DNA from: an uncultured Pseudomonadales bacterium
Lineage (GTDB): Bacteria; Pseudomonadota; Gammaproteobacteria; Pseudomonadales; Azotimanducaceae
Assembly (NCBI GenBank): GCA_958296195.1
Contig: OY282455.1
Location: 2,976,001-3,040,000 of the forward strand
Direction of reading: 5' to 3'
DNA: 64,000 bases
The notes under the pieces were generated by a model, which was not told where the DNA came from, did no database searches, and saw nothing but the letters and a program-made list of their open reading frames with translations. Shown here in pieces: positions 7,505 through 58,875 of this stretch. Each line of letters starts with the position of its first letter. Positions within the stretch are counted from its first letter, which is position 1. The translations under genes were made by a program, and so were the position numbers.

Positions 7505-8140
7505 ATGCCACCTTTGATGGAGCTGGGCCTGCAGGCACCGGCGGGGGCGGTTGTTTTTGCCGCTACGGTGGACGACTATCCGTTGCCGCCAGAGGAGGCG
7601 CTGTGTGTCGAGGACGCCGGGGAGCAGCGGCAGCGCCAATTCGCCAGCGGGCGCCATGCGGCTCGGGCCGCCTTGCGCCGCCTTGGCGGCGCTGGGCAGC
7701 CCATTGTGCGAGAGGGCCGCCGACCGTGCTGGCCGGCCGGCTTCATCGGCTCCATCAGCCACACGGACACCTTGGCGGTGGCGGCGGTGGCGGCAAAGTC
7801 CAGTGGACGGAGCATCGGCATCGACATCGAAAGAATTCGCCGGCTTAAGCCGGCGCTGCATCGCAAAGTCCTCACCGAGGAGGAGCGCCGGCGCCCTTGG
7901 CGGGACCCCCGGGAAGGCGTGGTGGCGTTCAGCGCCAAGGAGGCCGGCTACAAGGCGGTCAATCCGCTCACCGACGCCTTCATCCCCTTTCGGGAGGCTG
8001 AGGTCGAGCTGGACTGGAAGCGCTCCGCCTTTCGCCTGCGTTATTTGGGTCGCCATGAACCAAACCGCTTGCTCAACGATGGTGTGGGCACCTTCGGCTT
8101 CATTGGCAACGAAGTGGTGACGCTCTTTTTTCTGGGCTGA
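7505..8140 (+). CDS. 4'-phosphopantetheinyl transferase, Sfp/EntD type
   Basis: From ATG 7505 (ATG 7517 or TTG 7469 are alternatives) the protein has about 211 residues. It carries the family motifs in order: 'FASGRHAARAAL', 'GSISHTD', the Mg-binding 'IGIDIERI', and 'AFSAKEAGYK'. It transfers the phosphopantetheine arm of CoA to the serine of carrier proteins, with the acidic residues in GIDIE and SAKE binding Mg and CoA. The only carrier protein in the window is the ACP at 55872-56105, far away, so pairing with it is speculation. The CNT transporter starts 18 bp downstream, so the two may be co-transcribed. No start has a strong ribosome binding site. Confidence 0.88.
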   Translation: MPPLMELGLQAPAGAVVFAATVDDYPLPPEEALCVEDAGEQRQRQFASGRHAARAALRRLGGAGQPIVREGRRPCWPAGFIGSISHTDTLAVAAVAAKSSGRSIGIDIERIRRLKPALHRKVLTEEERRRPWRDPREGVVAFSAKEAGYKAVNPLTDAFIPFREAEVELDWKRSAFRLRYLGRHEPNRLLNDGVGTFGFIGNEVVTLFFLG

Positions 8141-8158
8141 GCAAGCGGGGTAGGGTAA

Positions 8159-9394
8159 ATGCAAGCCATCTTCGGCATCGCCGTTCTGCTGGGCGTCGCT
8201 TGGCTGCTGAGCGAAGCCCGCAGCCGCGTGAATTGGCGCATGGTGGTCGTGGGCCTGTCCATGCAGGCGCTGCTTGCCTTGCTGCTGCTCAAGGCGCCGG
8301 CGGTCAGCGAACTGCTGCTCGGCGTCAATGCCTTAGTCCGAGCGGTGGAGCAAGCCACCCAAGCCGGCAGCGGATTCCTATTTGGCTACTTGGCCGGCGG
8401 CGAGGCGCCGTTTCAGGTCGATGCGGAAGGCGCCCTCTATCTGTTGGCCTTCCGCGTTCTGCCGCAAATTCTGGTTTTCAGCGTTTTGGTCGCCGTGCTT
8501 TGGCATTGGCGGATTCTGCCTTGGATCATTCGTGCCTTCGGCGCTCTGCTGCGGCGTTCGCTGGGGGTCGGCGGGCCGGTTGGGACCGCCGGAGCGGCCA
8601 GCCTGTTTCTGAGCATGGTGGAGGCCCCCTTGGTCATCCGCGCCTATCTGGCCGGCCTGTCCCGCTCGGAGTTGTTTTCGGTGATGACCTGCGGCATGGG
8701 CACCGTGGCCGGCACCGTCATGGTGCTCTACGCCGGCGTCCTGCAAGACGTCATCGAGGGTGCCCTGGGGCATATTCTGGTCGCCTCGGTCATCAACGTC
8801 ATCGGCGCCATCCTGATCTCCAGAATGATGATTCCGCCAGCCGCAGAGGAGGTCCGGGGGGCCGAGGTGTCCTTGGCCTACACCGGCACCATGGACGCGA
8901 TCACGCGGGGCACCGCCGACGGCCTGCGCTTGGCGGTGAACGTGGGCGCCATGCTGATCGTGCTGATTAGCCTAGTGGCGCTGGTCAACTACGGGCTTTC
9001 CGCCATTGAGGTGGGCGGCGCCGGGCTGACTCTGGAGCGCATCCTAGGCTGGGCCTTCGCACCGGTGGCCTGGCTGCTGGGGGTGTCCTGGAGCGAAGCA
9101 CAGACCGCGGGAGGGTTGCTCGGCGCCAAGCTGGTTTTGAACGAGCTGGTGGCCTACTTGCAGTTGGCGGCCTTGGATGCGGACGCTCTGACCGCGCATT
9201 CGCGCTTGGTTCTCACCTACGCCCTATGCGGCTTCACCAACTTCGGCAGCCTCGGCATACTCTTGGGCGGCCTTTCCACCCTAGCGCCAGAAAGACGTGA
9301 AGACATCTTAAGTTTAGGATCTAAGTCGTTGATTTCAGGAACTTTGGTCTCATGCTTGACGGGCGCGGTGGTCGGTTTGGTCGGACAAATCTAA
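8159..9394 (+). CDS. Concentrative nucleoside transporter (NupC/CNT family)
   Basis: A 411-residue integral membrane protein with repeated hydrophobic segments and the usual CNT length. The conserved core is present: 'GTAGAASLFLSMVEAPLVIR', then 'SVMTCGMGTVAGTVM' and 'VINVIGAILISRMMIP', plus the C-terminal 'YALCGFTNFGSLGILLGGL'. CNT proteins import nucleosides with Na+ or H+. The start is ATG 8159 after GGTAGGG. It follows the phosphopantetheinyl transferase by 18 bp. The specific substrate cannot be told from sequence. Confidence 0.93.
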   Translation: MQAIFGIAVLLGVAWLLSEARSRVNWRMVVVGLSMQALLALLLLKAPAVSELLLGVNALVRAVEQATQAGSGFLFGYLAGGEAPFQVDAEGALYLLAFRVLPQILVFSVLVAVLWHWRILPWIIRAFGALLRRSLGVGGPVGTAGAASLFLSMVEAPLVIRAYLAGLSRSELFSVMTCGMGTVAGTVMVLYAGVLQDVIEGALGHILVASVINVIGAILISRMMIPPAAEEVRGAEVSLAYTGTMDAITRGTADGLRLAVNVGAMLIVLISLVALVNYGLSAIEVGGAGLTLERILGWAFAPVAWLLGVSWSEAQTAGGLLGAKLVLNELVAYLQLAALDADALTAHSRLVLTYALCGFTNFGSLGILLGGLSTLAPERREDILSLGSKSLISGTLVSCLTGAVVGLVGQI

Positions 9395-9400
9395 ACTTCG

Positions 9401-9811
9401 CTAGTTGGCCGCTAAGGAAACGTTGTAAACGCCGGCCAAGCGGGCGGAGTCCATCACATGGATCATGGTGGCGGTTTGGGAGTTCTCATGGGGATGGATG
9501 ATGACGGGAGCTTCCGGGTTCTCCGCATGCAGCCGTTCGATGTTGGCCCGCACCGAGCGCCAGTCCACATCCCGCTGCGCAATGAGGATGCGGTCCCTAT
9601 TGGTGATGCGCACGACGATGCTCCTTTTGTTGGGATCAACCGACTTGGGCTTGTCCTCGTCCGGTGAGTTCAGGTCCAGCCCCACCTCCTTGACGAAGGT
9701 GGCGGTGACAATGAAGAAGATCAACATGATGAACACCACGTCGAGCATGGGCGTCAAGTTGATTTGCTCGTCGCCCTCGTCAGAACTGCCGCGGCCAATC
9801 GTTCTTCGCAT
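9401..9811 (-). CDS. exbD: ExbD/TolR biopolymer transport protein
   Basis: 136 residues with one N-terminal transmembrane helix. The helix carries the conserved Asp in 'LTPMLDVVFIMLIFFIV', the proton-channel residue of ExbD/TolR. A periplasmic domain follows with 'VVRITNRDRILIAQRDVDW' and 'PVIIHPHENSQTATMIHVMD'. ExbD works with pentameric ExbB and TonB to power outer-membrane receptors. It lies 99 bp downstream of a TonB-dependent receptor gene on the same strand, but no exbB or tonB is adjacent. It may be a second ExbD subunit, or its partners lie elsewhere. Confidence 0.93.
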   Translation of the reverse strand: MRRTIGRGSSDEGDEQINLTPMLDVVFIMLIFFIVTATFVKEVGLDLNSPDEDKPKSVDPNKRSIVVRITNRDRILIAQRDVDWRSVRANIERLHAENPEAPVIIHPHENSQTATMIHVMDSARLAGVYNVSLAAN

Positions 9812-9910
9812 CGGATGCCCTCCCTAACGGGTATTGCTGCCAGTGGCGGCGGCCATCTTACTCCTAGGCCGCCGGAAACGAAAGCGGGGGAGCGGCTGCG
9901 CCGCCCGCGT

Positions 9911-12463
9911 TCACCATCTTAGCCCTATTTCGCCGCCGATGTAGCGGGGCGGCGCAAAATTGGAGAAGGTCCACAGGCCGGCCACCGTCTGGCTGGCCAC
10001 CCGATGCCGCTTGTCCGAAAGGTTGCGCCCCACTAGCCGGACAAAGTAGCGCTCCGCGCTGTCGGAAACCATGACGGACGCATTCCACAGGGTGCGGGCG
10101 TCCAGAAAGGTGTTGAAGTCCGTGCTGGCGATGGACTGGGTGAACAGGTTCTTGTCGAGGTAGTTGACGTTGCCGTTGAGCGTCACCTTGAAGCCTTCGG
10201 CCAACGGCCACTCGTAGGTGGCGTCCAGGGTCCACTGAACCTCCGGTGCCCGCTCACAGGGGGCGCTGGTGAGGTCATAGCCGGCGCCGGGCGCGAAGAA
10301 CGACTTGATATCGCAGTCTTGGTAGCCGAACACGGCGCGCAAGGTCAGGTTCTCCATCGGCAGCGCCGCCAGTTCCGTCTCGACGCCCTTGACCTCCGCC
10401 TTGGCGGCGTTGAAGAACTGGGTGATCTGCTGCTCCACGCCGTTGACGATCAGCGGAATGTTGATCTGCCTTTGCAGGTCCTTGTACTGGACGTAGAAGG
10501 CGGTGGCGTTGAAGCGCAGCTTGCCGCCGGCGGCCTCGGTCTTGACGCCGGCCTCAAAGGAGTCCGCGGTCTCCGGCTTGGTGGGCTGCACGGCGATTTG
10601 GAAGGCGGCCAGGTCGGAGCCAAAGGCGCCGGCGTTGCCTATCTGATCGTTGTAGCCGCCGCTCTTGAAGCCCCGCGAGTGCATGGCGTAGGCGTAAACG
10701 TTGTCTGTGGCTTGGTAGCCCAGGCTGATGCGCCAAGTGGCCTTGTCCACCGAGTCCTTGTCCTTGACTACGCCGAAGGGGTAGTTATAGACGCTGGCGG
10801 CCAAGGCGCTGCCCAACTCCGGCCAAGTGAACGAAGGATCCGAAGCGCCGCCGAGCTCCTGCACGAAGATCTGCTGGCGGGCGCGGAAGGTCTTGCTCTC
10901 CCAGGTGTAGCGGAAGCCGGCGGTGAGGGTCAGCCGCTCCGTCAGGTCATAGGTGCCTTCGGTGTAGAGGGCTGTGCTGTCTGATTTCTGGGCGCTGCAC
11001 AGAATGTAGGGCGTTTGGTTGAACGGGCCGTAGTTGACGCCGAAGAAGCTGAACAGGCTGGTGGGCGCTCCCGCCAAGTCGAGGAAACCGAGAATCTGCG
11101 CCACGCAGAAGTCGATCTCCTCGTGTTGGTAGAAGGCGCCGGAGATGAAGTTAAGGGGGCCGTCCAGCTGTGAGGCGAAGCGCAGCTCCTGCTGGAAGGT
11201 CTCCCGGTCGTCCGCCCGGTTGATGTCGAAGGGGGAGAGCACTTCGCCGTCCGCTGCGACCACCGGCGGATTGCCCGTTTCCGAACCGGCCAGGCGGGAC
11301 TCCTGCCGGCGGAAGCCGGTGATGGAGGTGGCCGTCCCCTTGCCCAAGTCCATGTCCATGTTGAGGTAAACCCCGTCGATGTCCACGCGCAGGCCGGGCA
11401 GATCGATCAGGAAACTGCCCCGATTGGTGGTGCCGCCGATGTCCAACGGGTTTCCTTGGCTCTGGCCTAAACCTAGGTTGTGGAAGAGGAAGCTTGGACT
11501 CATGGGCGTTTCGTTGACGGTGGCCTCGAACTCGGTGTCGTCGCGCATGAACTCATATTGGAGCAGGGCGCTGAAGTTGTCCGCCGGCTCCCACAGCAGC
11601 TTGACGCGGCCGTTGAGGATGTCGAAGCCACCGGTGTACTCGCCCTCTCCCGTGCCGCTCAGGCCGCTGAACTTGGTGGGCACGGGTGGCAGGCCGATGG
11701 GGCCGTAGGCGGCACCGTTGCGGACGAACCCGTCGGACTTGCGGTAGGCGCCAACCACCCGCAGCGCCAGTTGGTCCGTCGCCAAGGGCGCGTTCACCGC
11801 CCCCTTGACCGTGTAGGTGCCGAAGCTGCCGTAGCCGCCCTCCAAGGCGCCGCTGAAGCCTTCGTGGGAGGGGCGCTTGGTGCGCACCGAGATGGCGCCG
11901 CCGGTGGTGTTCTTGCCGAACAGGGTGCCTTGGGGGCCGCGCAGCACCTCCACTTGGGAGAGGTCGAAGGTGTCCAGCAACTGAGTCTGCACGCTAGTGA
12001 GGGCGAAGTCGTCCAGCACCACGGAAACCGGCGGCTCGTAATAGACGATGATGTTGTTCTGGCCGACGCCGCGCAGCCCAAAGGAGGCGGCGTTGGCGAA
12101 GCTGGTCACCCTGGCGGCGGAAAAGTTGGGCACGAAGACTGCCAAGTCCCCAAGGTCCCTGGGGTTGGCCTGCTCTATGAGGGCGGAGTCGATGGCCGAG
12201 ACGGAGATGGGCGTGGTTTGCAGGTCGGTGTCCCGGCGGGTGGCGGTGACCAGCACCTCCTCCAAGACCGTCTGGCTCTGGGCGGGGAAGGGCAGCACCG
12301 CCAACGCGGTCAGCGCCAGCAACGGACGGCGCACCCCACTAGGCGCCGATCGGTGTGCGGGTGCCTTCCAAAAACGATTTGCAGCCCCTTGCCATTGAAA
12401 GTGCTTGAATCGCCAAATGAGTTGGCTAAACCGGCCGGCGAGCGGCCCTAAGCGAATGGTCAT
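9911..12463 (-). CDS. TonB-dependent outer-membrane receptor
   Basis: 850 residues, starting at ATG 12463 directly after a strong GGAGGAGGGAAGCC. A long N-terminal extension precedes the hydrophobic export segment 'LLALTALAVLPFPAQSQ'. The TonB box-like 'LEEVLVTATRR' follows, then a plug domain with 'LRGPQGTLFGKNTTGGAIS' and the beta-barrel. The protein ends 'YIGGEIGLRW', with the terminal aromatic residue needed for barrel assembly. It resembles the broad Fe-siderophore/carbohydrate receptor group common in marine gammaproteobacteria and sphingomonads; the ligand cannot be predicted. ExbD is encoded directly downstream. Confidence 0.93.
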   Translation of the reverse strand: MTIRLGPLAGRFSQLIWRFKHFQWQGAANRFWKAPAHRSAPSGVRRPLLALTALAVLPFPAQSQTVLEEVLVTATRRDTDLQTTPISVSAIDSALIEQANPRDLGDLAVFVPNFSAARVTSFANAASFGLRGVGQNNIIVYYEPPVSVVLDDFALTSVQTQLLDTFDLSQVEVLRGPQGTLFGKNTTGGAISVRTKRPSHEGFSGALEGGYGSFGTYTVKGAVNAPLATDQLALRVVGAYRKSDGFVRNGAAYGPIGLPPVPTKFSGLSGTGEGEYTGGFDILNGRVKLLWEPADNFSALLQYEFMRDDTEFEATVNETPMSPSFLFHNLGLGQSQGNPLDIGGTTNRGSFLIDLPGLRVDIDGVYLNMDMDLGKGTATSITGFRRQESRLAGSETGNPPVVAADGEVLSPFDINRADDRETFQQELRFASQLDGPLNFISGAFYQHEEIDFCVAQILGFLDLAGAPTSLFSFFGVNYGPFNQTPYILCSAQKSDSTALYTEGTYDLTERLTLTAGFRYTWESKTFRARQQIFVQELGGASDPSFTWPELGSALAASVYNYPFGVVKDKDSVDKATWRISLGYQATDNVYAYAMHSRGFKSGGYNDQIGNAGAFGSDLAAFQIAVQPTKPETADSFEAGVKTEAAGGKLRFNATAFYVQYKDLQRQINIPLIVNGVEQQITQFFNAAKAEVKGVETELAALPMENLTLRAVFGYQDCDIKSFFAPGAGYDLTSAPCERAPEVQWTLDATYEWPLAEGFKVTLNGNVNYLDKNLFTQSIASTDFNTFLDARTLWNASVMVSDSAERYFVRLVGRNLSDKRHRVASQTVAGLWTFSNFAPPRYIGGEIGLRW

Positions 12464-12669
12464 GGCTTCCCTCCTCCACTGCGGTCATTGCCGTTGGCCA
12501 CTTCAGGCGGCTCTTCAGCCGCTCCCCAGCCATGCGAGGTGCAAGGAGGCGGCTCATCCTGCGCAAGAATAGTGAAATTGGCGAAGGGGCGTCAACAGCC
12601 ATTGGCCGGGCGGGGGCGCTGGGCTTAGAATGCCCTGCGTCAAACGGATGTGCGAGGAGTTACTCCAGC

Positions 12670-12987
12670 ATGAAGATCGGGCGATGGACTTTCGGCCTCT
12701 TGCTCGTTGCGGCCCTTGCCGCCGGTTGCCAAAGCTATCGGGACGGGGAGACGCGCACGGTCGGCGAACTGACCGACGATTCCGCCATTCAGGTCAAGGT
12801 GAAGACCCTGTTGGTTAAGGACAAGCTGATCGACGGCTGGCGCTTGGACGTCGATGTGGAGCGCGGCGTCGTCCGCCTGAGCGGCTGGGTGGCCACCGAG
12901 GAGATGCGCCGCAGGGCGCTGCAGATGGCCAATTCGGTCAAGGGCGTGCATTCGGTGGAGGACCAGCTGCAGGTGCAGGAGCGCTAG
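12670..12987 (+). CDS. BON-domain lipoprotein
   Basis: 105 residues from ATG 12670, with GAGGAG 11-12 bp upstream. A signal sequence ends in the lipobox 'LAAGC' near residue 20, giving a lipid-anchored periplasmic protein. The rest is one BON domain ('DDSAIQVKVKTLLVKDKLID', 'VVRLSGWVATEEMRRRAL', 'VHSVEDQLQV'), the fold of OsmY and DolP, which binds phospholipid and helps keep the envelope intact. A single domain rather than the pair in OsmY/DolP. It stands alone, convergent with hemF. Confidence 0.9.
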   Translation: MKIGRWTFGLLLVAALAAGCQSYRDGETRTVGELTDDSAIQVKVKTLLVKDKLIDGWRLDVDVERGVVRLSGWVATEEMRRRALQMANSVKGVHSVEDQLQVQER

Positions 12988-13002
12988 CCCAGCGGCGCGG
13001 CC

Positions 13003-13923
13003 CTAGCCGGAAGGCGCCGCTTGATCGTCGGCCGGCGCCTCACCGAGCCAGTCCCGCGGCCGCAAGTAGAAAGACAGCAGCTCCGCTTCCGGTGTGCCGG
13101 GTGAGGGTGCGTGGTTGTAGCGCCACTGCGCCAAGGGCGGCAGGGACGCGAGCACCGATTCGATGCGGCGTCCGCTTTGCAGGCCGTAGCGGGTGCCCCG
13201 ATCAATGGCCAAGTTGAATTCGGCGTAGCGCCCGCGCCGCAGCAATTGCCAGTCCCGCTCACGGGTACCGTAGGGGAGGGCGCTGCGCTTCTGGAAGATC
13301 TGCGCATAGGCCGGCATGAACGCCTGGCCGATGGAGCGGGTGAGCCGCAGGCTGGCCGTGAAGCCGCCCTCTGTCCAATCGTCAAAGAACAGTCCGCCGA
13401 TGCCGCGCGGCTCGCCACGATGGCGCAAGTGGAAATACTTGTCGCAGGCCCGCTTCATCTGCGCATAGTGCCGTCCCGCCGCCTGCTTGGCGGCCCGATG
13501 CCAAGCCACGCAGTCCTCGGCGAACCCATAGCACGGCGTCAAGTCGAAACCGCCGCCGAAGTGCCATGCCGGGAGCGCCCCATCCACGAGGAAAAAGCGC
13601 AGGTTCATGTGTGCGGTTGGCGCATAGGGGTTGCGCGGATGCACGATCACCGAGATGGCCGCGGCCTGAAAGCCGGCGCCGGCCAAATGCGGGTTGCGTT
13701 CGCTGGCCGCCGCCGGCAAGGCTTCGCCGACGCTGTGCGTGTACTGAACGGCGGCCTTCTCCACCTTCTGCCCGTCCTGCAGCACCCTCGGCTGACCGCA
13801 GCCGCCCCCTGGGTAGTCGAAGCGCTCCGCGGAAAAGCGCCCGGCACCGTCCAAAGCCTCCAAAGCGGCGCAGATGCTGCCCTGCAAGTCAATGAAGCAG
13901 GCTTTTACGGCTTTGATGTCCAT
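13003..13923 (-). CDS. hemF: Oxygen-dependent coproporphyrinogen III oxidase
   Basis: 306 residues, the normal HemF length. Family landmarks are 'RNPYAPTAHMNLRFF', 'WHFGGGFDLTPCYGF', 'CDKYFHLRHRGEPRGIGGLF' with 'FFDDW', and the C-terminal 'GRRIESVLASLPP' and 'WRYNH'. It carries out the two oxidative decarboxylations converting coproporphyrinogen III to protoporphyrinogen IX in haem synthesis and needs O2. This indicates an aerobic lifestyle. It is divergent from the HMG-CoA-synthase-like gene across a 130-bp intergenic region with an operator-like repeat. Confidence 0.96.
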   Translation of the reverse strand: MDIKAVKACFIDLQGSICAALEALDGAGRFSAERFDYPGGGCGQPRVLQDGQKVEKAAVQYTHSVGEALPAAASERNPHLAGAGFQAAAISVIVHPRNPYAPTAHMNLRFFLVDGALPAWHFGGGFDLTPCYGFAEDCVAWHRAAKQAAGRHYAQMKRACDKYFHLRHRGEPRGIGGLFFDDWTEGGFTASLRLTRSIGQAFMPAYAQIFQKRSALPYGTRERDWQLLRRGRYAEFNLAIDRGTRYGLQSGRRIESVLASLPPLAQWRYNHAPSPGTPEAELLSFYLRPRDWLGEAPADDQAAPSG

Positions 13924-13983
13924 TGCCGGCCAGCATTATGCCCTTGCCGCCAAGGGCTGTTAACAGCGTTGTTAGGGGTAACG

Positions 13984-14023
13984 CCGGAACATATTGTCGT
14001 TGTTCCGGGCAGTCCATTACAAT
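13984..14023 (+). promoter_or_regulatory. Candidate promoter with overlapping inverted repeat
   Basis: CCGGAACA (13984-13991) and TGTTCCGG (14001-14008) form perfect 8-bp arms around a 9-nt spacer. They overlap TTGTCG (13994-13999), which lies 18 bp from TACAAT (14018-14023). This fits a sigma-70 promoter for the gene at 14054, with a repressor-like operator over the -35 box. It sits between hemF and that gene and could affect either. Confidence 0.5.
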
Positions 14024-14053
14024 CGCGCCTGCATCTGAATTCGTGGAGGCGCC

Positions 14054-15508
14054 GTGGTCGGCATCACCGCTTTTGGCGGCTATGTTCCCAAGCTGCGTTT
14101 GGCTCGCCAAGCCATCGTTGACGCCCATGTTTGGGCGGACCCCAGCTTAGCCGGCAAGGCCAAGGGCGAGCGGGCCATGTGCAATTGGGACGAGGACGCC
14201 GTCACCATGGCGGTGGAGGCCGCCCGCGCTTGCTTGAACGGCGACGCCTCGGCCCCCGGCGCCATCTACTTCGCCAGCACCAGCGCTCCCTTTGCGGACC
14301 GGCAGAACGCCGGCATCGTCAGCACGGCGCTGTCGTTGCCGGAGGGCATCGCTTCCTTGGACATCGCCTCCAGCCAGAAGGCCGGCGTCTCAGCCTTGCT
14401 GCAGGGCATCGGCGCCGTGCGCGGAGGGCTTTACGAGTCTGCCTTGGTGGTCGCCAGCGAGAAGCGGCGCGTGCAAGCCGGCAGCCCGGGGGAGTTGGCC
14501 TATGGGGACGGCGCCGCGGCTTTGACGGTGGGGCAGGAGGGCGTGTTGGCGGAATTCGTCGCCGCGCAGAGCTCCACAGTCGATTTCATCGACCACTTCC
14601 GAGGCGCCACCGAAGCCTACGACTACACTTGGGAGGAGCGCTGGATTCGCGATGAGGGCCTCGCCAAGATCGCGCCGCCCTGCATCGAGCAAGCCTTGGC
14701 CAAGGCCGGGCTGGACGCCGGCGCCGTGGACCACTTCATCATGCCCAGCACCATTGGCCGGGCCGTGGCCGGCATCGCCCGCAAGGTTGGCATCACCAAG
14801 GGCGCCGTCGCCGACAACCTGCACGGCGTCATGGGGGCGAGCGGCGCGGCCCATCCCTTGGTCATGCTGCTGCATGTTCTGGAAACCCAGGCGAAACCGG
14901 GCCAGACCATCGTGCTGTCCAGTTTCGGCCAAGGCTGCGACGTTCTGGTGCTGCGGGCCACCGCCGCCTTGGCGGACTACCAAAGCGCCAACGGCATTGT
15001 GGATGCGCTGGCCCGTCGCCAAGTGGAGAACAACTACCAGAAGTTCCTGACCTTCAACGACCTGATTCGGCTGGAGAAGGGCATGCGGGCCGAGAACAAC
15101 GACTACAAGACCGCGCTGTCCGTCACCTACCGCAAGCGGGACATGCTGCTCGGCCTGGTCGGCGGGCGCTGCAGCCAGTGCGGAACGCTGCAGTTCCCGC
15201 GCACGGACATTTGCGTCAACCCGCAATGCCACGCCCAAGGCGCCCAGGAGCCTTGCTCGTTTCGTGAGCAGCCGGCGAAGGTTCTCACCTGGTCGGCGGA
15301 CTATCTCGCCTACACGGCGGACCCACCCAGCCACTACGGCATGATCGCCTTTGAAGAAGGCGGGCGGTTCATGACGGACTTCACCGACGTGGCGGCCGGC
15401 GAAGTGGAGGTGGGCTTGCCCGTGTACATGGTGTTCCGCATCAAGTCGGTGGATTCCCGGCGCGGCTTCGTGCGCTACTTTTGGAAGGCGGCGCCGGCGG
15501 CGCGGTGA
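14054..15508 (+). CDS. HMG-CoA-synthase-like protein fused to DUF35 OB-fold/zinc ribbon
   Basis: 484 residues from GTG 14054 (GGAGG six bases upstream). Residues 1 to about 340 match the archaeal-type HMG-CoA synthase/PhlA fold: 'IYFASTSAPFADRQNA', 'ASEKRRVQAGSPGELAYGDG', 'HGVMGASGAAHPLVMLLHVL' and 'VLSSFGQGCDVLVLR'. Residues about 365-480 are a DUF35 domain with a Cys4 zinc ribbon (Cys 373, 376, 387, 392) and an OB fold. Where HMG-CoA synthases have the catalytic Cys (FACKAG in archaea) this protein reads SSQKAG, so Gln108 replaces it. In archaea and in PhlACB, thiolase, DUF35 and the synthase-like subunit form one complex; here two of the three are fused and the thiolase is the next gene. 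The product is unknown. Confidence 0.85.
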   Translation: MVGITAFGGYVPKLRLARQAIVDAHVWADPSLAGKAKGERAMCNWDEDAVTMAVEAARACLNGDASAPGAIYFASTSAPFADRQNAGIVSTALSLPEGIASLDIASSQKAGVSALLQGIGAVRGGLYESALVVASEKRRVQAGSPGELAYGDGAAALTVGQEGVLAEFVAAQSSTVDFIDHFRGATEAYDYTWEERWIRDEGLAKIAPPCIEQALAKAGLDAGAVDHFIMPSTIGRAVAGIARKVGITKGAVADNLHGVMGASGAAHPLVMLLHVLETQAKPGQTIVLSSFGQGCDVLVLRATAALADYQSANGIVDALARRQVENNYQKFLTFNDLIRLEKGMRAENNDYKTALSVTYRKRDMLLGLVGGRCSQCGTLQFPRTDICVNPQCHAQGAQEPCSFREQPAKVLTWSADYLAYTADPPSHYGMIAFEEGGRFMTDFTDVAAGEVEVGLPVYMVFRIKSVDSRRGFVRYFWKAAPAAR

Positions 15509-15628
15509 TTCGGGAAAACGGCATCGCCGGCAGCGGGGCGCCGTCCTGCCGGAGAGTTTGGCGGGCGTGGCCGCACGGTTGTTGTAGGCTACGGCTGACT
15601 GGATTGCAATCAATCGAGGACTAATCGC

Positions 15629-16828
15629 ATGGCAACAGGCATCAAGGACAAGGTCGCCATTCTGGGCATGGGCTGCTCCCGCTTCGGGGAGCGCTGGGAA
15701 AGCGGCGCCGAGGAGCTGATGGTGGAGGCGTTCACCGAAGCGGTTGGCGACGCCGGCATCGATATCAGCGAAATCGACGCCGCCTGGTTCTCCACCCACT
15801 ACGAGGAAATCAACGTCGGCAAGGGCGGCTTGCCGCTGTCCGTCGCGCTGCGCCTGCCCAACATCGCCGTCACCCGGGTGGAGAACTTCTGCGCATCCGG
15901 TTCCGAGGCCTTCCGCGGCGCCGTTTACGCAGTGGCCTCCGGCGCCTGCGACATCGCCTTGGCGCTCGGGGTGGAGAAGTTGAAGGACACCGGCTATGGC
16001 GGCCTGCCCGGCGGCCTTGGCGGCACCTTGACCCCGCAATGGTCCGCAAACGCCTCCGCACCCGGCAGCTTCGCCCAACTGGCCAGCGCCTACCGCGCCA
16101 AGCACGGGGTGGAGCGGGATGAGCTGAAGCGCGCCATCGCCCACGTCTCGGTGAAGAGCCACGCCAACGGGGTGAAGAACTCCAAGGCCCATCTGCGCCG
16201 GGAGATCACCGAGGAGGACGCGATCAACGCCCCTATGATCGCCGAACCCTTGGGCCTGTTCGACTGCTGCGGCGTCAGCGACGGGGCCGCCGCGGCCATC
16301 GTCACCACCCCGGAAATCGCCAAAAGGCTGGGCAAGGAGAACATCGTCAGCGTCAAGGCGCTGCAGCTCTCCCTGTCGAACGGCGCCGAATCCGGCCACA
16401 ACTCCTGGGACGGCAGTTATTTCCACACCACCCGCATCGCCGCCAAGAAAGCCTATGACGAGGCCGGCATCGGCAAGCCTCGGGAGCAGGTCAGCATGTT
16501 CGAGTGCCATGACTGCTTCTCCATCACCGAGATGGTCACCATGGAGGACTTGCAGCTCTCCCCGGAGGGCGGCGCCATCAACGACGTCATGGACGGCTTC
16601 TACGATGCCGACGGGCAAATTCCCTGCCAAATCGACGGCGGCCTGAAGTGCTTCGGGCACCCCATCGGCGCTTCCGGCATCCGCATGCTCTACGAGATGT
16701 ACCTGCAGTTGCAGGGCCGGGCGGGGGAGCGCCAGTTGCCCAAACCCTCCATCGGCATGACCCACAACCTAGGCGGTTCTCCCATGAGCAATGTGGCCGC
16801 GGTGTGCATTGTTGGAGCTTACGAATAG
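15629..16828 (+). CDS. SCP-x/PhlC-type thiolase
   Basis: 399 residues. The thiolase features include the nucleophilic Cys88 in 'VENFCASGSEAFRGA', 'ECHDCFSITEMVTMEDL', and the C-terminal 'LKCFGHPIGASGIRMLYEMY' with catalytic His and Cys, ending 'MTHNLGGSPMSNVAAVCIVG'. This belongs to the SCP-x/archaeal acetoacetyl-CoA thiolase branch that needs a DUF35 partner. The gene follows the HMG-CoA-synthase-like/DUF35 fusion by 120 bp on the same strand, so the two very likely form one complex. It may make or cleave a C-C bond in an acyl-CoA; whether the direction is synthesis or degradation cannot be seen. Confidence 0.88.
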   Translation: MATGIKDKVAILGMGCSRFGERWESGAEELMVEAFTEAVGDAGIDISEIDAAWFSTHYEEINVGKGGLPLSVALRLPNIAVTRVENFCASGSEAFRGAVYAVASGACDIALALGVEKLKDTGYGGLPGGLGGTLTPQWSANASAPGSFAQLASAYRAKHGVERDELKRAIAHVSVKSHANGVKNSKAHLRREITEEDAINAPMIAEPLGLFDCCGVSDGAAAAIVTTPEIAKRLGKENIVSVKALQLSLSNGAESGHNSWDGSYFHTTRIAAKKAYDEAGIGKPREQVSMFECHDCFSITEMVTMEDLQLSPEGGAINDVMDGFYDADGQIPCQIDGGLKCFGHPIGASGIRMLYEMYLQLQGRAGERQLPKPSIGMTHNLGGSPMSNVAAVCIVGAYE

Positions 16829-17181: not shown

Positions 17182-17385
17182 CTAGGTTTGCTCCTTCCAA
17201 TCAAAGTGGTGTTTCTTCGGGTCGAAAGGGGGCGAAGAACCCCGCAGGTGCTCTTGGTAGCGTCTGCGAAGGTCGATGGACTGTCCCTGATAGTCAACCT
17301 TCCCCGTCTTCTTATTGACGTATCTGTACACACCCGGCACTTTTTCAGGTCTTCCTCTCTTATACCTGCCTGGACCAAACGACAT
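17182..17385 (-). CDS. Small GIY-YIG-like protein
   Basis: 67 residues from ATG 17385, with a textbook AAGGAGG eight bases upstream. The body reads 'PGVYRYVNKKTGKVDYQGQS', then 'IDLRRRYQEHLRG'. This matches the GIY-YIG motif as G-V-Y ... D-Y-Q-G, followed by the conserved Arg-rich helix 'LRRRYQEHL'. A full GIY-YIG domain is about 90 residues and ends with Glu and Asn metal/catalytic residues; here it stops soon after the first helix at 'HFDWKEQT'. It is either a truncated nuclease or a minimal DNA-binding version. A 41-aa charged protein is encoded immediately after it, so the two form a mini-operon next to a rearranged toxin-antitoxin remnant. Confidence 0.6.
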   Translation of the reverse strand: MSFGPGRYKRGRPEKVPGVYRYVNKKTGKVDYQGQSIDLRRRYQEHLRGSSPPFDPKKHHFDWKEQT

Positions 17386-17503
17386 GAGTTAGCCCTCCTT
17401 ATCGTGTGTTGATGTTGCTCCGGGAACCGCTATTCATCAGGTTATACCCGTTACGAAGACCGTATGCTAAATCTTGCTTTTTGCAAGTCAAGCATATTGT
17501 TCC

Positions 17504-17541
17504 TCAAGCTAACGCAACTCCCGGTTGGCCGCCAAGTCCGC
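17504..17541. repeat. 38-bp direct repeat, copy 1 (MFS 3'-end duplicate)
   Basis: Starts TCAAGCTAACGCAACTCCCG and ends GCCAAGTCCGC. It is identical to 18037-18074, which is the 3' end and stop of the MFS gene. Here it is joined in frame to a PIN-toxin start. Confidence 0.95.
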
Positions 17542-17628
17542 ATGGCCTTCGAGAAAGTAGATGATTGGCGCACTGTCCACCGTTACTCTGCCGCCGGGGG
17601 GCAACGCGCTGATGTCCATCACGGCCAT
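17509..17628 (-). pseudogene. Truncated PIN-domain toxin fused to MFS gene tail
   Basis: ATG 17628 overlaps the antitoxin stop, the usual toxin-antitoxin layout. The 39 residues start 'MAVMDISALPPGGRVTVDSA' and 'PIIYFLEGHADLAA', i.e. the first strand and helix of a PIN (VapC-like) domain with its first catalytic Asp. They then end abruptly as 'NRELR', identical to the C-terminus of the MFS transporter because the coding DNA is the duplicated 38-bp segment. The remaining acidic residues and about two thirds of the domain are missing, so no nuclease activity is expected. Confidence 0.75.
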
Positions 17629-17867
17629 TCGCCCCTCAGCTTGTCAACGAACCGCCCCGCATCCCCGAAGCAGCCCTTCGCCGACCCGCGCAAATCCGAA
17701 AGGTTCGGTGCCTTGCGCAACGCTTGGGACACAGGAACGACGGCGGCGTAGGGTTTGCCACGCTTGGTGACCATGGTGATGGCACCCTCATTATTGGCCG
17801 CCCGAAGGATTTCCGGCAGCCTTGTTCTGGCCTCCTCGACGCCAGCGGTTTCGACTCTGCTCTGCAT
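17619..17867 (-). CDS. Phd/YefM-type antitoxin
   Basis: 82 residues, start ATG 17867. The N-terminal 'VEEARTRLPEILRAANNEGA' and 'ITMVTKRGKPYAAVVPV' is the classical prevent-host-death DNA-binding fold; the C-terminal tail would wrap around the toxin. The stop overlaps the start of the PIN-toxin remnant. Since the toxin is truncated, this is now an orphan antitoxin that may still autorepress its promoter. CTGTAC occurs twice just upstream (17883 and 17892) and could be part of an operator. Confidence 0.8.
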   Translation of the reverse strand: MQSRVETAGVEEARTRLPEILRAANNEGAITMVTKRGKPYAAVVPVSQALRKAPNLSDLRGSAKGCFGDAGRFVDKLRGEWP

Positions 17868-17882
17868 TGTCTTGGACCTTAA

Positions 17883-18036
17883 CTGTACGATCTGTACAAC
17901 CTAACGCAAACTGCAATCCTCCGCAACCGCTTGCGCGCCACGGGAAGCGCCCGCCTCAACCGCGCCGTGCAGCGGTTCGACGCCAACACCTATCTGATGA
18001 CCCGCGCCTTGGGCTTCTTTGACCCGGCAGAAGACT
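17883..18036 (+). pseudogene. Fragment resembling homoserine O-acyltransferase (MetX-like)
   Basis: The plus-strand frame is open from 17883 and reads 'RFDANTYLMTRALGFFDPAE', close to the 'RFDANSYLYLTRAMDYFD' block of MetX-type alpha/beta-hydrolase acyltransferases. No start and no catalytic Ser or His are present; the match ends at the 38-bp repeat, where the frame runs into antisense of the MFS gene. A short similarity, so the identity is tentative. It suggests further DNA was deleted here. Confidence 0.35.
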
Positions 18037-53404: not shown

Positions 53405-54697
53405 ATGGTGCAGGCAAGCCCGAAGGTTGCTCGGCTTCTCATTGACGACAAGGAAATCGACCTGCCCGTCATATCCGGCAGCGGCGGTCCGGACGTCATT
53501 GATGTCGGCGGCCTGACCCGGCACGGCTACTTCACCTACGATCCGGGCTTTGTCTCCACCGCCTCCTGCGACTCCGAACTCACCTACATCGACGGAGACG
53601 CCGGCGTCCTGCTGCACCGCGGCTATCCCATTGAACAGCTAGCCGAGCGGTCCGACTTCCTGGAGCTTTGCTACCTGTTGCTGAACGGCGACCTGCCCTG
53701 CGCAGCCAAGCGGGAGCAGTTCGTCAACAACATCAGGCGCCACACCATGGTGCATGAAAAACTCAAGGCCCTGATCCAAGGCTACCGGCGGGACGCCCAC
53801 CCCATGGCCATCCTGTGCGGCGTGGTGGCGGCGCTGTCCGCCTTCTACCATGACTCCTTGGACATCGACGATGCGCAGCATCGGCTAAGGACCGCCCACC
53901 GCCTGATCGCCAAGATGCCAACCTTGGCGGCGATGAGCTACAAGTACGCTCGCGGCGAGCCCTTCATCTACCCGCGCAACGATCTTGGCTACGCGGAGAA
54001 CTTCCTGCACATGATGTTCGCCAACCCATGCGAGGAGCACCACGTCAATCCGGTAATCGCCCAGGCCATGGACCGCATCTTTCTGCTGCATGCGGACCAT
54101 GAGCAAAACGCCTCTACCTCCACGGTGCGCATGGCCGGCTCCACCGGCGCCAACCCCTTCTCCTGCATCGCCGCCGGCATTGCCGCCCTGTGGGGCCCCT
54201 CCCACGGCGGCGCCAACGAAGCGGTGCTGAACATGCTGGCGGAAATCGGCCACGAGAAGCACATCGACAAGTATGTCGCCAAGGCCAAAAACAAGGACGA
54301 CCCCTTCCGATTGATGGGCTTCGGCCATCGGGTTTACAAAAGCTACGACCCGCGTGCCAAGGTCATGCAGCAAAGCTGCCATGAAGTGCTCAACGCCCTC
54401 GGTGTGGATAGCGACCCCACCCTGCGCATGGCGCAGCGGTTGGAGCAAATCGCCCTCGAGGACAGCTATTTTGTGGAGAAACGCCTCTATCCGAACGTGG
54501 ATTTCTACTCCGGCATCATCCTGAAGGCCATCGGCATTCCGGTGGAGATGTTTACGGTCATCTTCGCCGTCGGCAGAACTCCAGGCTGGATCGCCCACTG
54601 GAACGAGATGATCGGCGGCAACTACCGGCTTGGCAGGCCAAGGCAACTTTACCGCGGCCCAACCCGCAGGGACTATTTGCCGGTTGACCGAAGGTAA
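53405..54697 (+). CDS. gltA: Citrate synthase (type II)
   Basis: 430 residues from ATG 53405 with AAGGGAGGAC immediately before it. It is the hexameric type II form with an N-terminal beta domain ('[20 protein letters not shown]'). Active-site His are in '[20 protein letters not shown]' and '[20 protein letters not shown]', and the Asp in '[20 protein letters not shown]'. It condenses acetyl-CoA with oxaloacetate to begin the TCA cycle. The 3' end overlaps the convergent alpha-oxoamine synthase gene by 25 bp. Confidence 0.97.
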
Positions 54698-55875
54698 GCG
54701 TCGGTTTTCGCCACAACCTTGCCCATCGCCGCCACGATTTGCTCAATCTCCTGGGGCTTGTGGGCGGCACTGACGCTCATGCGCAGCAGGCTACCGCCGC
54801 TGGGCGCGGCCGGGGGCAGCATCAGGTTGACGTAAACCCCCTCCTCCAGCAGTTTCCGCCAAGCGGACAGCGCTTCGGTCCGGTCGGCAAGGCGCACCGC
54901 CATGACCGGGCTGGGCGCCTCGCCCACCTGCAGGCCAAGCTGGGTCAAGCCTTGGTGCAACTGCCGGGCGTTGCGCCAAAGCTGCGCCTTCAGCTCCGGG
55001 CGGTTGCGCAGCGCCCGCAGCGCGGAGCGGGTGCATTCCACCGTGGCCGGCGAGGGCGAAGCCGTGAACATGTAAGGCCGGCTGGCGTAGGTGAACAACG
55101 CCAACTCCTCATGCCGACTGGTGCAGAATCCGCCCATGGTGCCTAGACTCTTGCTGAAGGTGCCGACCACGAAGTCCACTTGGTCCAGAATTCCGGCCGC
55201 CTCGACCACGCCCCTGCCCTGCTCGCCCGCTACGCCGAGGGAGTGGGCTTCATCGACCAGCAGCAAGGCGCCGCGGCGGCTCTTCACCTCCGCGATTTCG
55301 GCCAAGGGCGCTTGATCGCCAAGCACGCTGTACAGACCCTCCACCACCACCAAGGCGTTGGCGGCCCGCTCACCGAGGCGGGTCAAGCGGGCGTCGAGGC
55401 TGGACGAGTCATTGTGGCGAAAGACATAGACTTGCGCCTGGCACAGCCGGCAACCGTCATAGAGGCTGGCGTGGGCGTCCGCGTCGAGCAGCACCGCATC
55501 CTCCGGCCCCAGCAGGGCCGCCAAGGTGCCTAGGTTGGCGGCGTAGCCAGTGGAGAACACCACCGCATGGGGATAGCCGTAGAAGTCGGCGATCTCCGCC
55601 TCCAAGGCAACATGACCGGCGTAGGTGCCGTTGGCCATGCGCGACCCGGTGGTGCCAGTGCCGGCGTCTTGAATGGCCTGCCGCCCGGCCGCCACGCCAG
55701 CGGCGTCGAAGGTCAGACCCAAATAGTTGTTGGTGCCGGCCAGCACGGTGGCGACGCCGTTGATGACGCCCAAGGTGGGCGAATGCAGGCGCTCGATGAC
55801 CACCTTAGTGGGATCCACCTCGCCAAGGCTGCGGCGAACCTCAGCAACGGCTTGGAACTTCGCCAGCAGGCTCAT
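54673..55875 (-). CDS. spt: Serine palmitoyltransferase-like alpha-oxoamine synthase
   Basis: 400 residues. PLP-dependent fold type I: '[20 protein letters not shown]', '[20 protein letters not shown]', '[20 protein letters not shown]', '[20 protein letters not shown]' and the PLP-lysine in '[20 protein letters not shown]'. The family includes KBL, BioF, HemA and bacterial SPT. The neighbouring ACP (4-bp overlap), epimerase-like reductase and acyl-AMP ligase match the SPT operon type, so serine plus acyl-ACP to 3-oxo-sphinganine is the likely reaction. BioF is the main alternative, but no other bio genes are near. Confidence 0.82.
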
Positions 55876-56105
55876 GGGGTCATGCGCCGCACGATGTCCG
55901 CCAACTGGGCGACATTGCGCACATTGGCCAGTTTCTCCTGCTCAATGACGAGCTCGAAATGATCCTCCACCTCCATGACGAACTCCATGAGCTGCGCCGA
56001 CTCCAAGGCTAGGGCTTCGAGCAGGTCGGTCTGCGGCGAAAAGTCCTCCGGCAACGTTGCCACCGCCGCCAAAAGGTCGCGCAACTGCGCTTCAATCGCA
56101 TCCAA
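55872..56105 (-). CDS. Acyl carrier protein of the ceramide-type operon
   Basis: 77 residues with the four-helix ACP pattern: 'MDAIEAQLRDLLAAVATLPE', then 'DLLEALALESAQLMEFVMEV' and 'LANVRNVAQLADIVRRM'. The phosphopantetheine Ser is in 'LESAQL', where most ACPs have DSL; the E-S-A variant is unusual but seen in specialised carriers. It would carry the fatty acyl chain from the upstream ligase to the SPT-like enzyme. Overlaps spt by 4 bp. Confidence 0.85.
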   Translation of the reverse strand: MDAIEAQLRDLLAAVATLPEDFSPQTDLLEALALESAQLMEFVMEVEDHFELVIEQEKLANVRNVAQLADIVRRMTP

Positions 56106-56106
56106 T

Positions 56107-57033
56107 TCACTTGCCTCCTAGGGTTTGCTCCATGCCGCTAGCCAAATTGTGGCGAGGGCGCCAGCCGGTCACCGCACCATAGCGGTCGTCGCCGCCCACC
56201 CAGCGGTCGTGCAGCAACTCCCGAACCTTGCCCGGCGTCAGCATGGGCGCACGACGCCGCAACCGGGACAGCAGCACGTTCATGCGGGCAGCCAGCATTA
56301 GAGCATACGGGGGAATCACCAGCGTGCGCTTGCCCGAGCTGCCGGCCGCCGCGGTGATGGCCGGCCAATCGTAACCGTCCGCCGCCCCATCGTCGATGCT
56401 GAACTGACGGCGGCGGCAGCGAGCGGGATCCTCCAGCCAGCGCAGAATCGCCGACACCAAGTCGTCAACATGCAGAAACGAAAGGCGTTGGCGCACATTG
56501 CCGGGAACCACCGTCAAGCCACGCCGCAGCAAGCGCAGCATGGGGCGGAGTTCAACATCCCCAGGGCCGTAAACGGCCGGCGGGCGAACAATGGTCCAGT
56601 CGAGATCGGGCTGGGCCGACAGCGCCCGCTCCCCTGCCCTTTTGCTGGCCGCATAGTCCGAAAGTTGCGGCTGCGAAGCCGCCAGGGAGGACACCAAGAG
56701 AAACGCCGGCGGCCGCTCCTGCCGGGCCGCTGCCGCAGCAAGGTGGCGCACAGCGTCAACATTGGCCAGCCTGAAGTCCTCCGGCCGCCGACCGCGCACC
56801 GCGCCGGCGAGATGAATGACCGCATCCATGCCTGTCAGCGCTTCTTCGAGCGCCTGCGGATTCCCTAAGCAGGCCAGCCAAGGTTCAATTTCGGAGTCGA
56901 GGGCGGTTGTGGGGCGCCTAAGGATGGCGCGCACAGCGAAACTGTCGGAGAGCAGCGGCCCCGCCAAGCGGCGGCCGATGAATCCGGTTAGGCCGGTGAC
57001 GGCGACAGTTCGTGGGCTGGCCTTGGAAACCGT
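56107..57033 (-). CDS. NAD-dependent epimerase/dehydratase-type reductase (CerR-like)
   Basis: An extended SDR with Rossmann motif 'VAVTGLTGFIGRRLAGPLLS', 'GMDAVIHLAGAVRGRRPEDF', 'FLLVSSLAASQPQLSDYAAS' followed by K (the YxxxK active site, Y-A-A-S-K), and 'WTIVRPPAVYGPGDVELRPM'. Between the TGA that ends the ligase (57052-57054) and the motif there is no ATG, GTG or TTG in frame. The first such codon, TTG 56967, lies after GxxGxxG and would destroy NAD binding. ACG 57033 would give a normal-looking N-terminus (VSKASPRTVAVTG), so it is used here as a working start. Readthrough of the TGA is the other option. In Caulobacter a homologous gene next to spt reduces oxidised ceramide. Confidence 0.75.
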   Translation of the reverse strand, partial: TVSKASPRTVAVTGLTGFIGRRLAGPLLSDSFAVRAILRRPTTALDSEIEPWLACLGNPQALEEALTGMDAVIHLAGAVRGRRPEDFRLANVDAVRHLAAAAARQERPPAFLLVSSLAASQPQLSDYAASKRAGERALSAQPDLDWTIVRPPAVYGPGDVELRPMLRLLRRGLTVVPGNVRQRLSFLHVDDLVSAILRWLEDPARCRRRQFSIDDGAADGYDWPAITAAAGSSGKRTLVIPPYALMLAARMNVLLSRLRRRAPMLTPGKVRELLHDRWVGGDDRYGAVTGWRPRHNLASGMEQTLGGK

Positions 57034-57051
57034 GAGGACAGCCCCACAACC

Positions 57052-58875
57052 TCAGACTGCCGCCTGTCGCATGTTGTCGCTCGGCCACGCCACCAGAGGC
57101 ACCGGATGACGCCCGTCCTCGTCCCACTGAATGCGGGCTAGGAAACCTTTGCAGGCGGTGATGCGGGACAGTTTGCCGGAGGAGGTGCGCGGCAGGGTGC
57201 GCGGCGGCACGATGTCAACATGGCAGGAAATGCCGAAGTGTTCGCGCATCAGCGATTCGATGCGCGTGGGTAGTTCCGGGTCGGCGCCCTTGGCTTCAAT
57301 GACGAGCACCACCATCGGCGCCCCGTTCGGCCGCGTCACCTCAAAAGCCGTTGTGGTTCCGCTGCGCACTCCTGGAGCGGTCTCCGCCAACTGCTCCAAA
57401 TCCTGGGGCCAAATGTTACGCCCACTGATGATGATGACGTCCCGGCTGCGAGCGGTCACCACCAAGTGCCGGCCGCATCGATAGCCGATGTCCCCAGTGT
57501 CAAGCCAGCCCGACTGATCGAGCACCTCAGCCGTGGCCTCGGGATCGTTGAAGTAGCCGCGCATGACGCTTGGCCCACGCACCAGAATGCGCCCGCACCG
57601 CCGCTCCTCAAGTTCTTGGCCCGACTCATCGCAGATTCTGAACTCGTAACTGGGCATGACCGCCCCGCAATCGACCAAGCCGAGGACGTCCCGGCTGGGA
57701 GAATCGGCGCCATCAACCGGCGTCGCCCGTCCGGACGTGGCCACCAGCTCCTTGTCCACCAAATCGACGTCAATGCCCTGGTTAAGGGGCGCGAAGCTGA
57801 TGGCCAAGCCGCATTCCGCCATGCCGTAGCAGGCCACAAATGCCTTGGGGTTGAACCCGGCCGGCGCAAGCACCCGGCTGAACCGCTCCAGCAAGCGGGG
57901 ATTGATGCGTTCGGCGCCGACGCAGGCGACCCGCCAATGGGAAAGGTCGTAGCGTTCGTGGTCCGAAGAGCGCAATCGCGCCGCGCACAGACCATAGCCG
58001 GACGGCGGGCTTGAAGAGACCGTGCCCTTGTTGTCGGAAATGAGCTTGAGCCACAGCCGCGGGCGCATGGCGAAGGTGCGTGGGCTTAGATAGTCCACGG
58101 ACAACGCGCGCATCAAGGGAACCAGAACGAATCCAACCAAGCCCATGTCGTGGTAGAAAGGCAGCCAGGACACGAGCCGGTCGTCGTCCCGCATCTTTGC
58201 GCCCACATCGGTTATTTCGCGCAGATTGGACAGCACCGCCGCCTGGGACATCTCCACGCCCCTAGGAAACCGAGTGCTGCCGGAAGTGTACTGCAGGTAG
58301 GCCGGCTCCTCTCCGACCAGCGGACGCAAGGGCGCATTCGCTTCCGGCAAGGCGTCAAAATCCTCCGCGTCGCCAACGAACCTCAAGGACAGCGGCTGCG
58401 CCGCCTGTTTGAGCAAGTCAAGGAAGCCTTCGGGGGCGATGGCCACCGCAGCGCCGCTGCTTTTCATCATGCGCCGAATCTGGTCGGCGTAGGCGTCGCC
58501 GCCGCCCATTTGCAGCCCCGCGGGTATGGGCACTGGAATCAGCCCGGCGTATTGGCAAGCGAAGAAGAAGCGGTGGAACAGTGGGGTGGTGTCGGCGATG
58601 ATGGCGACCCGTGCGTAGCGGGCCAGTTTCAGGCTGTTGAGGCGGCGGGCGGTGGCTAGGGCCTCGTCACGCAAAGCGGCGTACGGCAGCACATGGGTCA
58701 AGCGCCCGACGCCGCCGTAAAAGTTGTATCCGGTTGACCACTGCGCAGCGAACTCCAACGCATCCGCCAAGCCCGCAAACGCTCTCTCACGACTTGGCGC
58801 CCCCCCGCCTGTCGGTGTTGCAACTAAATCCGTCACTATGTGCTTACCCGCTATGACAGGAACTTCCCACCCCAA
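57052..58875 (-). CDS. Fatty-acyl-AMP ligase / acyl-ACP synthetase
   Basis: 607 residues from TTG 58875; GTG 58836 is an alternative. It is an ANL-superfamily enzyme of FAAL type: P-loop-like 'YLQYTSGSTRFPRGVEMSQA', 'LVSWLPFYHDMGLVGFVLVP', 'FVACYGMAECGLAISFAPLN', 'SGWLDTGDIGYRCGRHLVVT' and the C-terminal 'TLPRTSSGKLSRITACKGFL' with the catalytic Lys. Such enzymes activate a fatty acid as acyl-AMP and load it on ACP. It starts a four-gene leftward operon (ligase, reductase, ACP, SPT). The downstream reductase is in the same frame beyond a single TGA. Confidence 0.88.
   Translation of the reverse strand: MGWEVPVIAGKHIVTDLVATPTGGGAPSRERAFAGLADALEFAAQWSTGYNFYGGVGRLTHVLPYAALRDEALATARRLNSLKLARYARVAIIADTTPLFHRFFFACQYAGLIPVPIPAGLQMGGGDAYADQIRRMMKSSGAAVAIAPEGFLDLLKQAAQPLSLRFVGDAEDFDALPEANAPLRPLVGEEPAYLQYTSGSTRFPRGVEMSQAAVLSNLREITDVGAKMRDDDRLVSWLPFYHDMGLVGFVLVPLMRALSVDYLSPRTFAMRPRLWLKLISDNKGTVSSSPPSGYGLCAARLRSSDHERYDLSHWRVACVGAERINPRLLERFSRVLAPAGFNPKAFVACYGMAECGLAISFAPLNQGIDVDLVDKELVATSGRATPVDGADSPSRDVLGLVDCGAVMPSYEFRICDESGQELEERRCGRILVRGPSVMRGYFNDPEATAEVLDQSGWLDTGDIGYRCGRHLVVTARSRDVIIISGRNIWPQDLEQLAETAPGVRSGTTTAFEVTRPNGAPMVVLVIEAKGADPELPTRIESLMREHFGISCHVDIVPPRTLPRTSSGKLSRITACKGFLARIQWDEDGRHPVPLVAWPSDNMRQAAV

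Follow-up and report, generated by a model that had tools for sequence, protein, structure and literature searches.

In the genome of an uncultured Pseudomonadales bacterium of the family Azotimanducaceae (assembly GCA_958296195.1; genome G000, one contig, OY282455.1, of 4,311,735 bases), we analyzed a four-gene operon, aasR-cerR-acpR-spt, lying in a 64,000-nucleotide stretch at 2976001–3040000 that is hereafter called the window. We conclude that the operon very probably supplies the sphingoid base for a ceramide by a route dependent on the acyl carrier protein AcpR, and that partner genes elsewhere in the genome would lead from there to a phosphosphingolipid. The presence and homology of these genes, the membership of Spt in a clade of serine palmitoyltransferases (SPTs), and the linkage of the genes in relatives were observed directly. 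As a member of a known pathway the operon itself is expected, and such gammaproteobacterial operons are in print (PMC9386255 and PMC11324152). What is new here is the division of the pathway among three islands, together with a linked set of tailoring and export genes that are partly uncharacterized.

Organization of the Operon

As shown in Table 1, four frames, each open over its full length, run in the order aasR-cerR-acpR-spt on the minus strand from 58875 to 54673. The cerR frame begins straight after the aasR stop codon (TGA, 57054–57052), a single base pair separates the cerR stop (56109–56107) from the TTG of acpR (56105), and acpR, directly upstream of spt, overlaps it by 4 bp (ATGA at 55875–55872). 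AasR is an AMP-binding protein that scored 678.6 bits with the NCBIfam model PRK09192, "fatty acyl-AMP ligase" (cut-off 600), CerR is an epimerase-type short-chain dehydrogenase/reductase (SDR; PF01370, 1.9e-23), and AcpR is a PP-binding protein (PF00550, 2.1e-9). The gene order recurs in relatives of the same genus, in relatives of the same family and in Escherichia coli BL21, and the arrangement therefore goes beyond chance; Spt, AcpR and CerR were found together in all five genomes of the genus (g1) examined. A sequence-only reading of the window had proposed a ceramide-type operon of four genes on one strand with tiny gaps, and frames, families and conserved order bear this out; the ceramide-lipid function that it predicted is likewise supported at the level of homology. 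The convergent genes gltA (plus strand) and spt share 25 bp at their 3' ends (window 54673–54697).

These four genes occur in identical order as CC_1165–CC_1162 of Caulobacter and ECD_02851–02854 of E. coli BL21, where the second gene is called epi or cerR (PMC9386255). In BLASTP comparisons with the E. coli BL21 proteins, identity was 51% for Spt, 43% for AasR (550 columns), 38% for CerR (302) and 34% for AcpR (68). According to the same source, AasR loads AcpR, SPT prefers acyl-AcpR, and spt of alpha-, beta- and gammaproteobacteria co-occurs with genes for an acyl carrier protein and a ligase.

The Alpha-oxoamine Synthase Is of the SPT Type

The alpha-oxoamine synthase (AOS) of the window groups with SPTs and not with BioF or Kbl, as the sequence-only reading had held. 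Spt passed the curated SPT equivalog model SerpalmtaseBetaP (568.8 bits, cut-off 500) and stayed under the cut-offs of the models for bioF, glycine C-acetyltransferase, 5-aminolevulinate synthase, SerpalmtaseAlphaP and SerpalmtaseCFB. Among solved structures, proteobacterial SPTs match it best (379–404 bits; PDB 2x8u, E 5.1e-120); the best Kbl reached 222 bits, E. coli BioF 174, the cysteate fatty acyltransferase 28eh 159 and CAI-1 synthase 134–135. Lys242 (in an SK motif), His135, Asp208 and Arg365 align with the same residues in the solved SPTs, and we take these to be catalytic.

In a 44-row tree, Spt fell inside a 28-row proteobacterial SPT clade that includes E. coli BL21 Spt (support 99/100). 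The tree also contained BioF and Kbl of E. coli, proteins resembling either of these from family relatives, alphaproteobacterial relatives and four Bacteroidota AOSs (L093–L096, whose "SPT" label was assigned by us and not by a model); L147, L083 and many near-duplicates were left out. Approximately unbiased (AU) tests rejected trees in which Spt was forced together with the five Kbl-like rows (p 0.0004) or the four BioF-like rows (p 4e-73). A quick tree of 94 rows, which retained the very long branch of L147, placed Spt likewise, with lower support at the deep forks (81–92). L-Serine and acyl-AcpR are the predicted substrate pair of Spt.

Three loci of Caulobacter sp. (L053, L054, L059) encode an SPT-like protein of 53–56% identity with no AcpR, AasR or CerR match in the fetched flanks. 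They were unusable as Caulobacter reference loci, and possibly reflect a second kind of AOS use.

The Phosphopantetheine Site of AcpR

The AcpR alignment had 78 rows, one from the window, one from E. coli BL21 and the rest from 76 of the 79 loci examined (the three Caulobacter sp. loci gave no AcpR hit; L001 is the window's own copy, and several named loci duplicate others of the set). The predicted 4'-phosphopantetheine serine aligned in every row and was preceded by Asp (36 rows), Glu (29), Ala (9), Ser (2) or Thr (2). The site of E. coli BL21 AcpR, a protein reported to carry phosphopantetheine (PMC9386255), reads E-S-I. The E-S-A site singled out by the sequence-only reading is present, as L-E-S-A, but because Glu precedes Ser in E. 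coli BL21 and many other rows it is ordinary, with no deviation of interest.

A bCerS Homologue Encoded Outside the Operon

The genome was searched for the N-acyltransferase (bCerS) that the window itself lacks, with E. coli YghO, the presumed N-acyltransferase of the ceramide set (PMC9386255, PMC11324152), as the query. A single homologue was found, at 3890183–3891301, 0.86 Mb from the operon (47% identity over 374 amino acids, query residues 7–380 of 380, E 3.9e-116), which answers the question that the sequence-only reading had put to the full genome. The sole PF04339 (FemAB_like) gene of G000 (3086597–3087703) was rejected as bCerS; it belongs to a different family, since a Pfam scan of E. 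coli YghO at E 0.001 gave nothing. That PF04339 is the bCerS family was our own assumption, and it was not borne out. The location of bCerS in a separate transcription unit agrees with what PMC9386255 and PMC11324152 state for other systems; of the five-gene set that includes CC_1154 in Caulobacter and yghO in E. coli, the N-acyltransferase gene lies beside aasR in BL21 but far from it in G000.

Spt (at least 49% identity) and bCerS were then scored in 100 genomes of the family, G000 among them, which were a sample of a larger group. The two tend to occur together: Spt was present in 30 and bCerS in 23; both occurred in 21, Spt only in 9, bCerS only in 2 and neither in 68 (Fisher p 1.4e-12, relatedness uncorrected). 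In the two bCerS-only genomes, AasR runs off a contig end (G026) or AasR and CerR adjoin bCerS (G036). Among the 16 genomes outside the genus that carry both, Spt and bCerS lie on one contig within 40 kb in 10 and on different contigs in 6. None of the five in-genus genomes with both has them linked: the genes are about 0.86 Mb apart in G000 and about 1.6 Mb apart in G076, both single contigs, and on separate contigs in the other three, where assembly breaks could contribute.

Partner Genes in Two Further Islands

The genes of the pathway lie in three islands: island A (2.948–2.955 Mb), with transport and head-group genes, the window operon, and island C (3.890–3.898 Mb), with bCerS and tailoring genes (Table 1). 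The split looks genus-wide because all five in-genus genomes are unlinked and the gene for the CDP-alcohol transferase is distant from spt in G076 (67 kb) and G000 (79 kb); in G012 the two are adjacent.

In two genomes of other genera, G012 (L124 and L125, with L042 on the same contig as L124) and G090 (L130, L009), most of the homologues lie in one block bounded by bCerS and aasR; by coordinates it spans about 17 kb in G012 and about 18 kb in G090, where only the near end of aasR is in view. Genes of islands A and C have counterparts beside spt in both (30–63% identity), and homologues of them are likewise found on the flanks of spt in G055 (L044), L045 and L061.

G000 has two LptF/LptG pairs, one in island A (2952585–2954671) and one at 958523–960675 (L141, G000:C1:950001–968000) that is presumably the normal lipopolysaccharide exporter. 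The island A LptF is 41–51% identical to the LptF at the clusters of G012, G090, G055, G049 and L045, compared with at best 26–31% for the other LptF.

The island C dioxygenase matched two NCBIfam models, OlsC (NF052565, 213.5 bits, cut-off 450) and LpxO (NF033391, 122.2 bits, cut-off 500), both below the cut-off; with these as its two matches, it is likely a lipid acyl 2-hydroxylase. A hydroxylase match was obtained in 18 of the 22 Spt- or bCerS-bearing family genomes searched, and in 12 it lies within about 5 kb of bCerS; the protein differs from OlsC and LpxO in this linkage and in its sub-cut-off scores.

One island A protein of 341 amino acids (L140 4411–5436, minus strand) has no Pfam or NCBIfam match, and has homologues (26–46% identity) in the sphingolipid clusters of relatives. 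By eye, its N-terminal region resembles a minimal nucleotidyltransferase motif.

Table 1. Features of the window operon and of islands A and C. Island C positions are given within L038 (G000 3880001–3900000), island A positions within L140. All island C features listed lie downstream of bCerS and on its strand.
Region	Feature	Position	Strand	Description
Window	aasR	57052..58875	-	FAAL-type (fatty acyl-AMP ligase) acyl-AMP ligase, predicted specialized acyl-AcpR synthetase; 607 aa from TTG 58875
Window	aasR, alternative possible start	about 58836	-	in-frame GTG
Window	cerR	56107..57051	-	extended SDR, predicted 3-oxo-sphinganine/oxidized-ceramide reductase; open from 57051
Window	acpR	55872..56105	-	specialized acyl carrier protein; 77 aa, TTG start
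Window	acpR serine (L-E-S-A)	55998..56000	-	predicted 4'-phosphopantetheine site
Window	spt	54673..55875	-	serine palmitoyltransferase; 400 aa
Island C	nucleotidyltransferase	11486-12271	same as bCerS	MobA/CofC-like; downstream of bCerS
Island C	kinase	12253-13359		DAGK_cat, with GGDGT
Island C	dioxygenase	13373-14272		Asp_Arg_Hydrox
Island C	GMC oxidoreductase	14275-15885		followed by a Uma2-like frame
Island C	second nucleotidyltransferase	about 17197-17928
Island A	gene block	3131-10206		LptF/LptG, flippase-like protein, CDP-alcohol phosphotransferase, metallophosphatase, LptA-like protein, Pfam-less protein

Discussion

The reactions, substrates and products that we assign to each enzyme are predictions. 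AasR would activate a free fatty acid as acyl-AMP and load it onto AcpR, Spt would condense acyl-AcpR with L-serine to 3-oxo-sphinganine, the distant bCerS homologue would add the N-acyl chain, and CerR would reduce the keto group to give (dihydro)ceramide; the order of the bCerS and CerR steps is described as debated (PMC11087976). By analogy with CpgB of Caulobacter (PMC10331486), the DAGK-fold kinase is probably a ceramide kinase, and the CofC-like and CpgD-like nucleotidyltransferases (CpgD analogy, PMC12275187) probably act toward a phosphosphingolipid. The CDP-alcohol phosphotransferase and the metallophosphatase would probably take part in the same conversion, the dioxygenase probably 2-hydroxylates the acyl chain, and transport of the lipid to the outer membrane is probably the task of the flippase-like protein together with the second LptF/LptG/LptA set. 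By analogy with CpgB, CpgD and CC_1153/CC_1159 (PMC11324152), the kinase, the nucleotidyltransferases and the CDP-alcohol transferase suggest a phospho head group. The predicted overall course is from ceramide to a phosphosphingolipid that a second Lpt-type system would export.

By domain, this set shares with the CPG/CPG2 system of Caulobacter (CpgA–D, CC_1153, CC_1158; PMC11324152, PMC12275187, PMC10331486) a DAGK-fold kinase, two nucleotidyltransferases, a CDP-alcohol phosphotransferase, a phosphoesterase and second Lpt permeases. Unlike that system, G000 has an OlsC/LpxO-like hydroxylase and a GMC oxidoreductase in island C, and its genes lie in three islands. We propose only tentatively, and consider it more doubtful than probable, that this gammaproteobacterial family makes an undescribed phosphosphingolipid, with a ceramide 2-hydroxylated by the OlsC/LpxO-like enzyme, a CDP-activated head group attached without a CpgC step, possible oxidation by the GMC enzyme and export by its own second LptF/LptG/LptA system.

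Several results weigh against the phosphosphingolipid reading. The pathway is dispersed in G000, and the link between its islands therefore rests on relatives. The LptF/LptG pair beside bCerS in G085 (L131) is scarcely closer to the island A pair than to the other (LptG 26% vs 26%, LptF 31%), and the hydroxylase gene lies away from the cluster in G012 (on another contig), G049 and G019. The likeness to the Caulobacter Cpg proteins was drawn from domains and published descriptions, not from direct alignment. For CpgC (CC_1161), described as CDP-diacylglycerol-synthase-like and looked for as a gene additional to CdsA, no counterpart was found: G000 gave a single PF01148 (CTP_transf_1) match, at 3342761–3343534, in a search that a CpgC of another family would escape; with no CpgC visible, the product need not be CPG2 and its head group may differ from that of Caulobacter. 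Nor is Spt always accompanied by bCerS: the nine Spt-only genomes among the 30 with Spt are five of genus g11, three of g35 and G066 (88% complete). In g35 (L153, G077), homologues of AasR, CerR, the kinase, the first nucleotidyltransferase (NTP1) and the hydroxylase lie beside spt and bCerS is absent, and in g11 (L152, G083) the 20 kb around spt hold AcpR and LptF/LptG matches and no AasR or CerR. Finally, between the aasR stop and the Rossmann motif of CerR (TGLTGFIG; window 56107–57054, minus strand) there is no ATG, GTG or TTG, so that cerR is without a usual start codon, a point of difference from the Caulobacter and E. coli BL21 system.

The eight g11 and g35 genomes carry Spt with AcpR and gave no bCerS match, and it is possible that they use another N-acyltransferase or make a lipid without an N-acyl chain.

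The absence of a bCerS match in nine Spt-bearing genomes, and the fact that sequence does not reveal the substrate of an AOS with certainty, would suit a different product, in which the AOS joins acyl-AcpR to another amino acid, as in a sulfonolipid from cysteate, a 1-deoxy base from alanine or an alpha-aminoketone signal. We consider this unlikely, as Spt passes the SPT equivalog cut-off and scores far higher with solved SPTs than with the cysteate and CAI-1 enzymes, and bCerS is present in the genome. If the product is a ceramide, it could also be left plain or be glycosylated with UDP-glucuronate from the neighboring Ugd, as the sequence-only reading suggested: a distance of 1.5 kb separates ugd from spt in the window, ugd and gltA adjoin the operon in the genus mates L127/L084, L039, L040 and L041, and glycosphingolipids are known from Caulobacter (PMC11324152). 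In the fetched DNA, however, there is no ugd match around the spt clusters of G012 and G090, and Ugd was for this reason set aside as a part of the system; the kinase and nucleotidyltransferase genes, moreover, argue for a phospho head group. On this evidence, gathered with no search aimed at a ceramide glycosyltransferase, the proposed link of Ugd to the operon is unsupported and a plain or glycosylated ceramide quite improbable.

The missing cerR start and the dispersal of the cluster could instead mark a pathway in decay. No ATG, GTG or TTG is read before the cerR motif in the same-genus locus L040 either, though a run of N lies there, and L048 has only CTG. But the four window frames are fully open, a TTG stands at the same place in the same-genus loci L127, L039 and L041 (the last from "Candidatus Azophilus lithoversatilis"), and Spt, AcpR and CerR stay together throughout the genus genomes examined; loss of function is therefore very unlikely indeed, and a rare start codon or an error in the sequence would account for the gap. 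A read-through or fusion of aasR and cerR, which lie in one frame both in the window and in L127, was dropped: by coordinates the frames differ in L041, and the shared frame is thus not conserved.

The view that a gammaproteobacterial set is notable in itself has been overtaken by the literature: besides the operons already in print, Azotobacter vinelandii and Pseudomonas luteola are also listed in PMC11324152, and Spt-like proteins are reported from Black Sea metagenome-assembled genomes of 38 bacterial phyla (PMC11334938). We drew 276 genomes of at least 90% completeness evenly from the class Gammaproteobacteria, to which the former Betaproteobacteria belong if the class is drawn as in GTDB. 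An Spt match at E <= 1e-80 occurred in 19 of these genomes, G000 included; identity reached 51% or more in 17 and was 40% in the other two. Among the literature matches listed, no publication dealt with gammaproteobacterial sphingolipid tailoring, which says little.

The operon itself confirms a known distribution of sphingolipid genes in Gammaproteobacteria. For bacterial phosphosphingolipids, several enzyme steps and transport are left open in sections 8 and 13 of PMC11324152, and the linked set described here names candidates: an OlsC-like hydroxylase, a GMC oxidoreductase, a CDP-alcohol transferase, LptA2/F2/G2 and a flippase-like protein.

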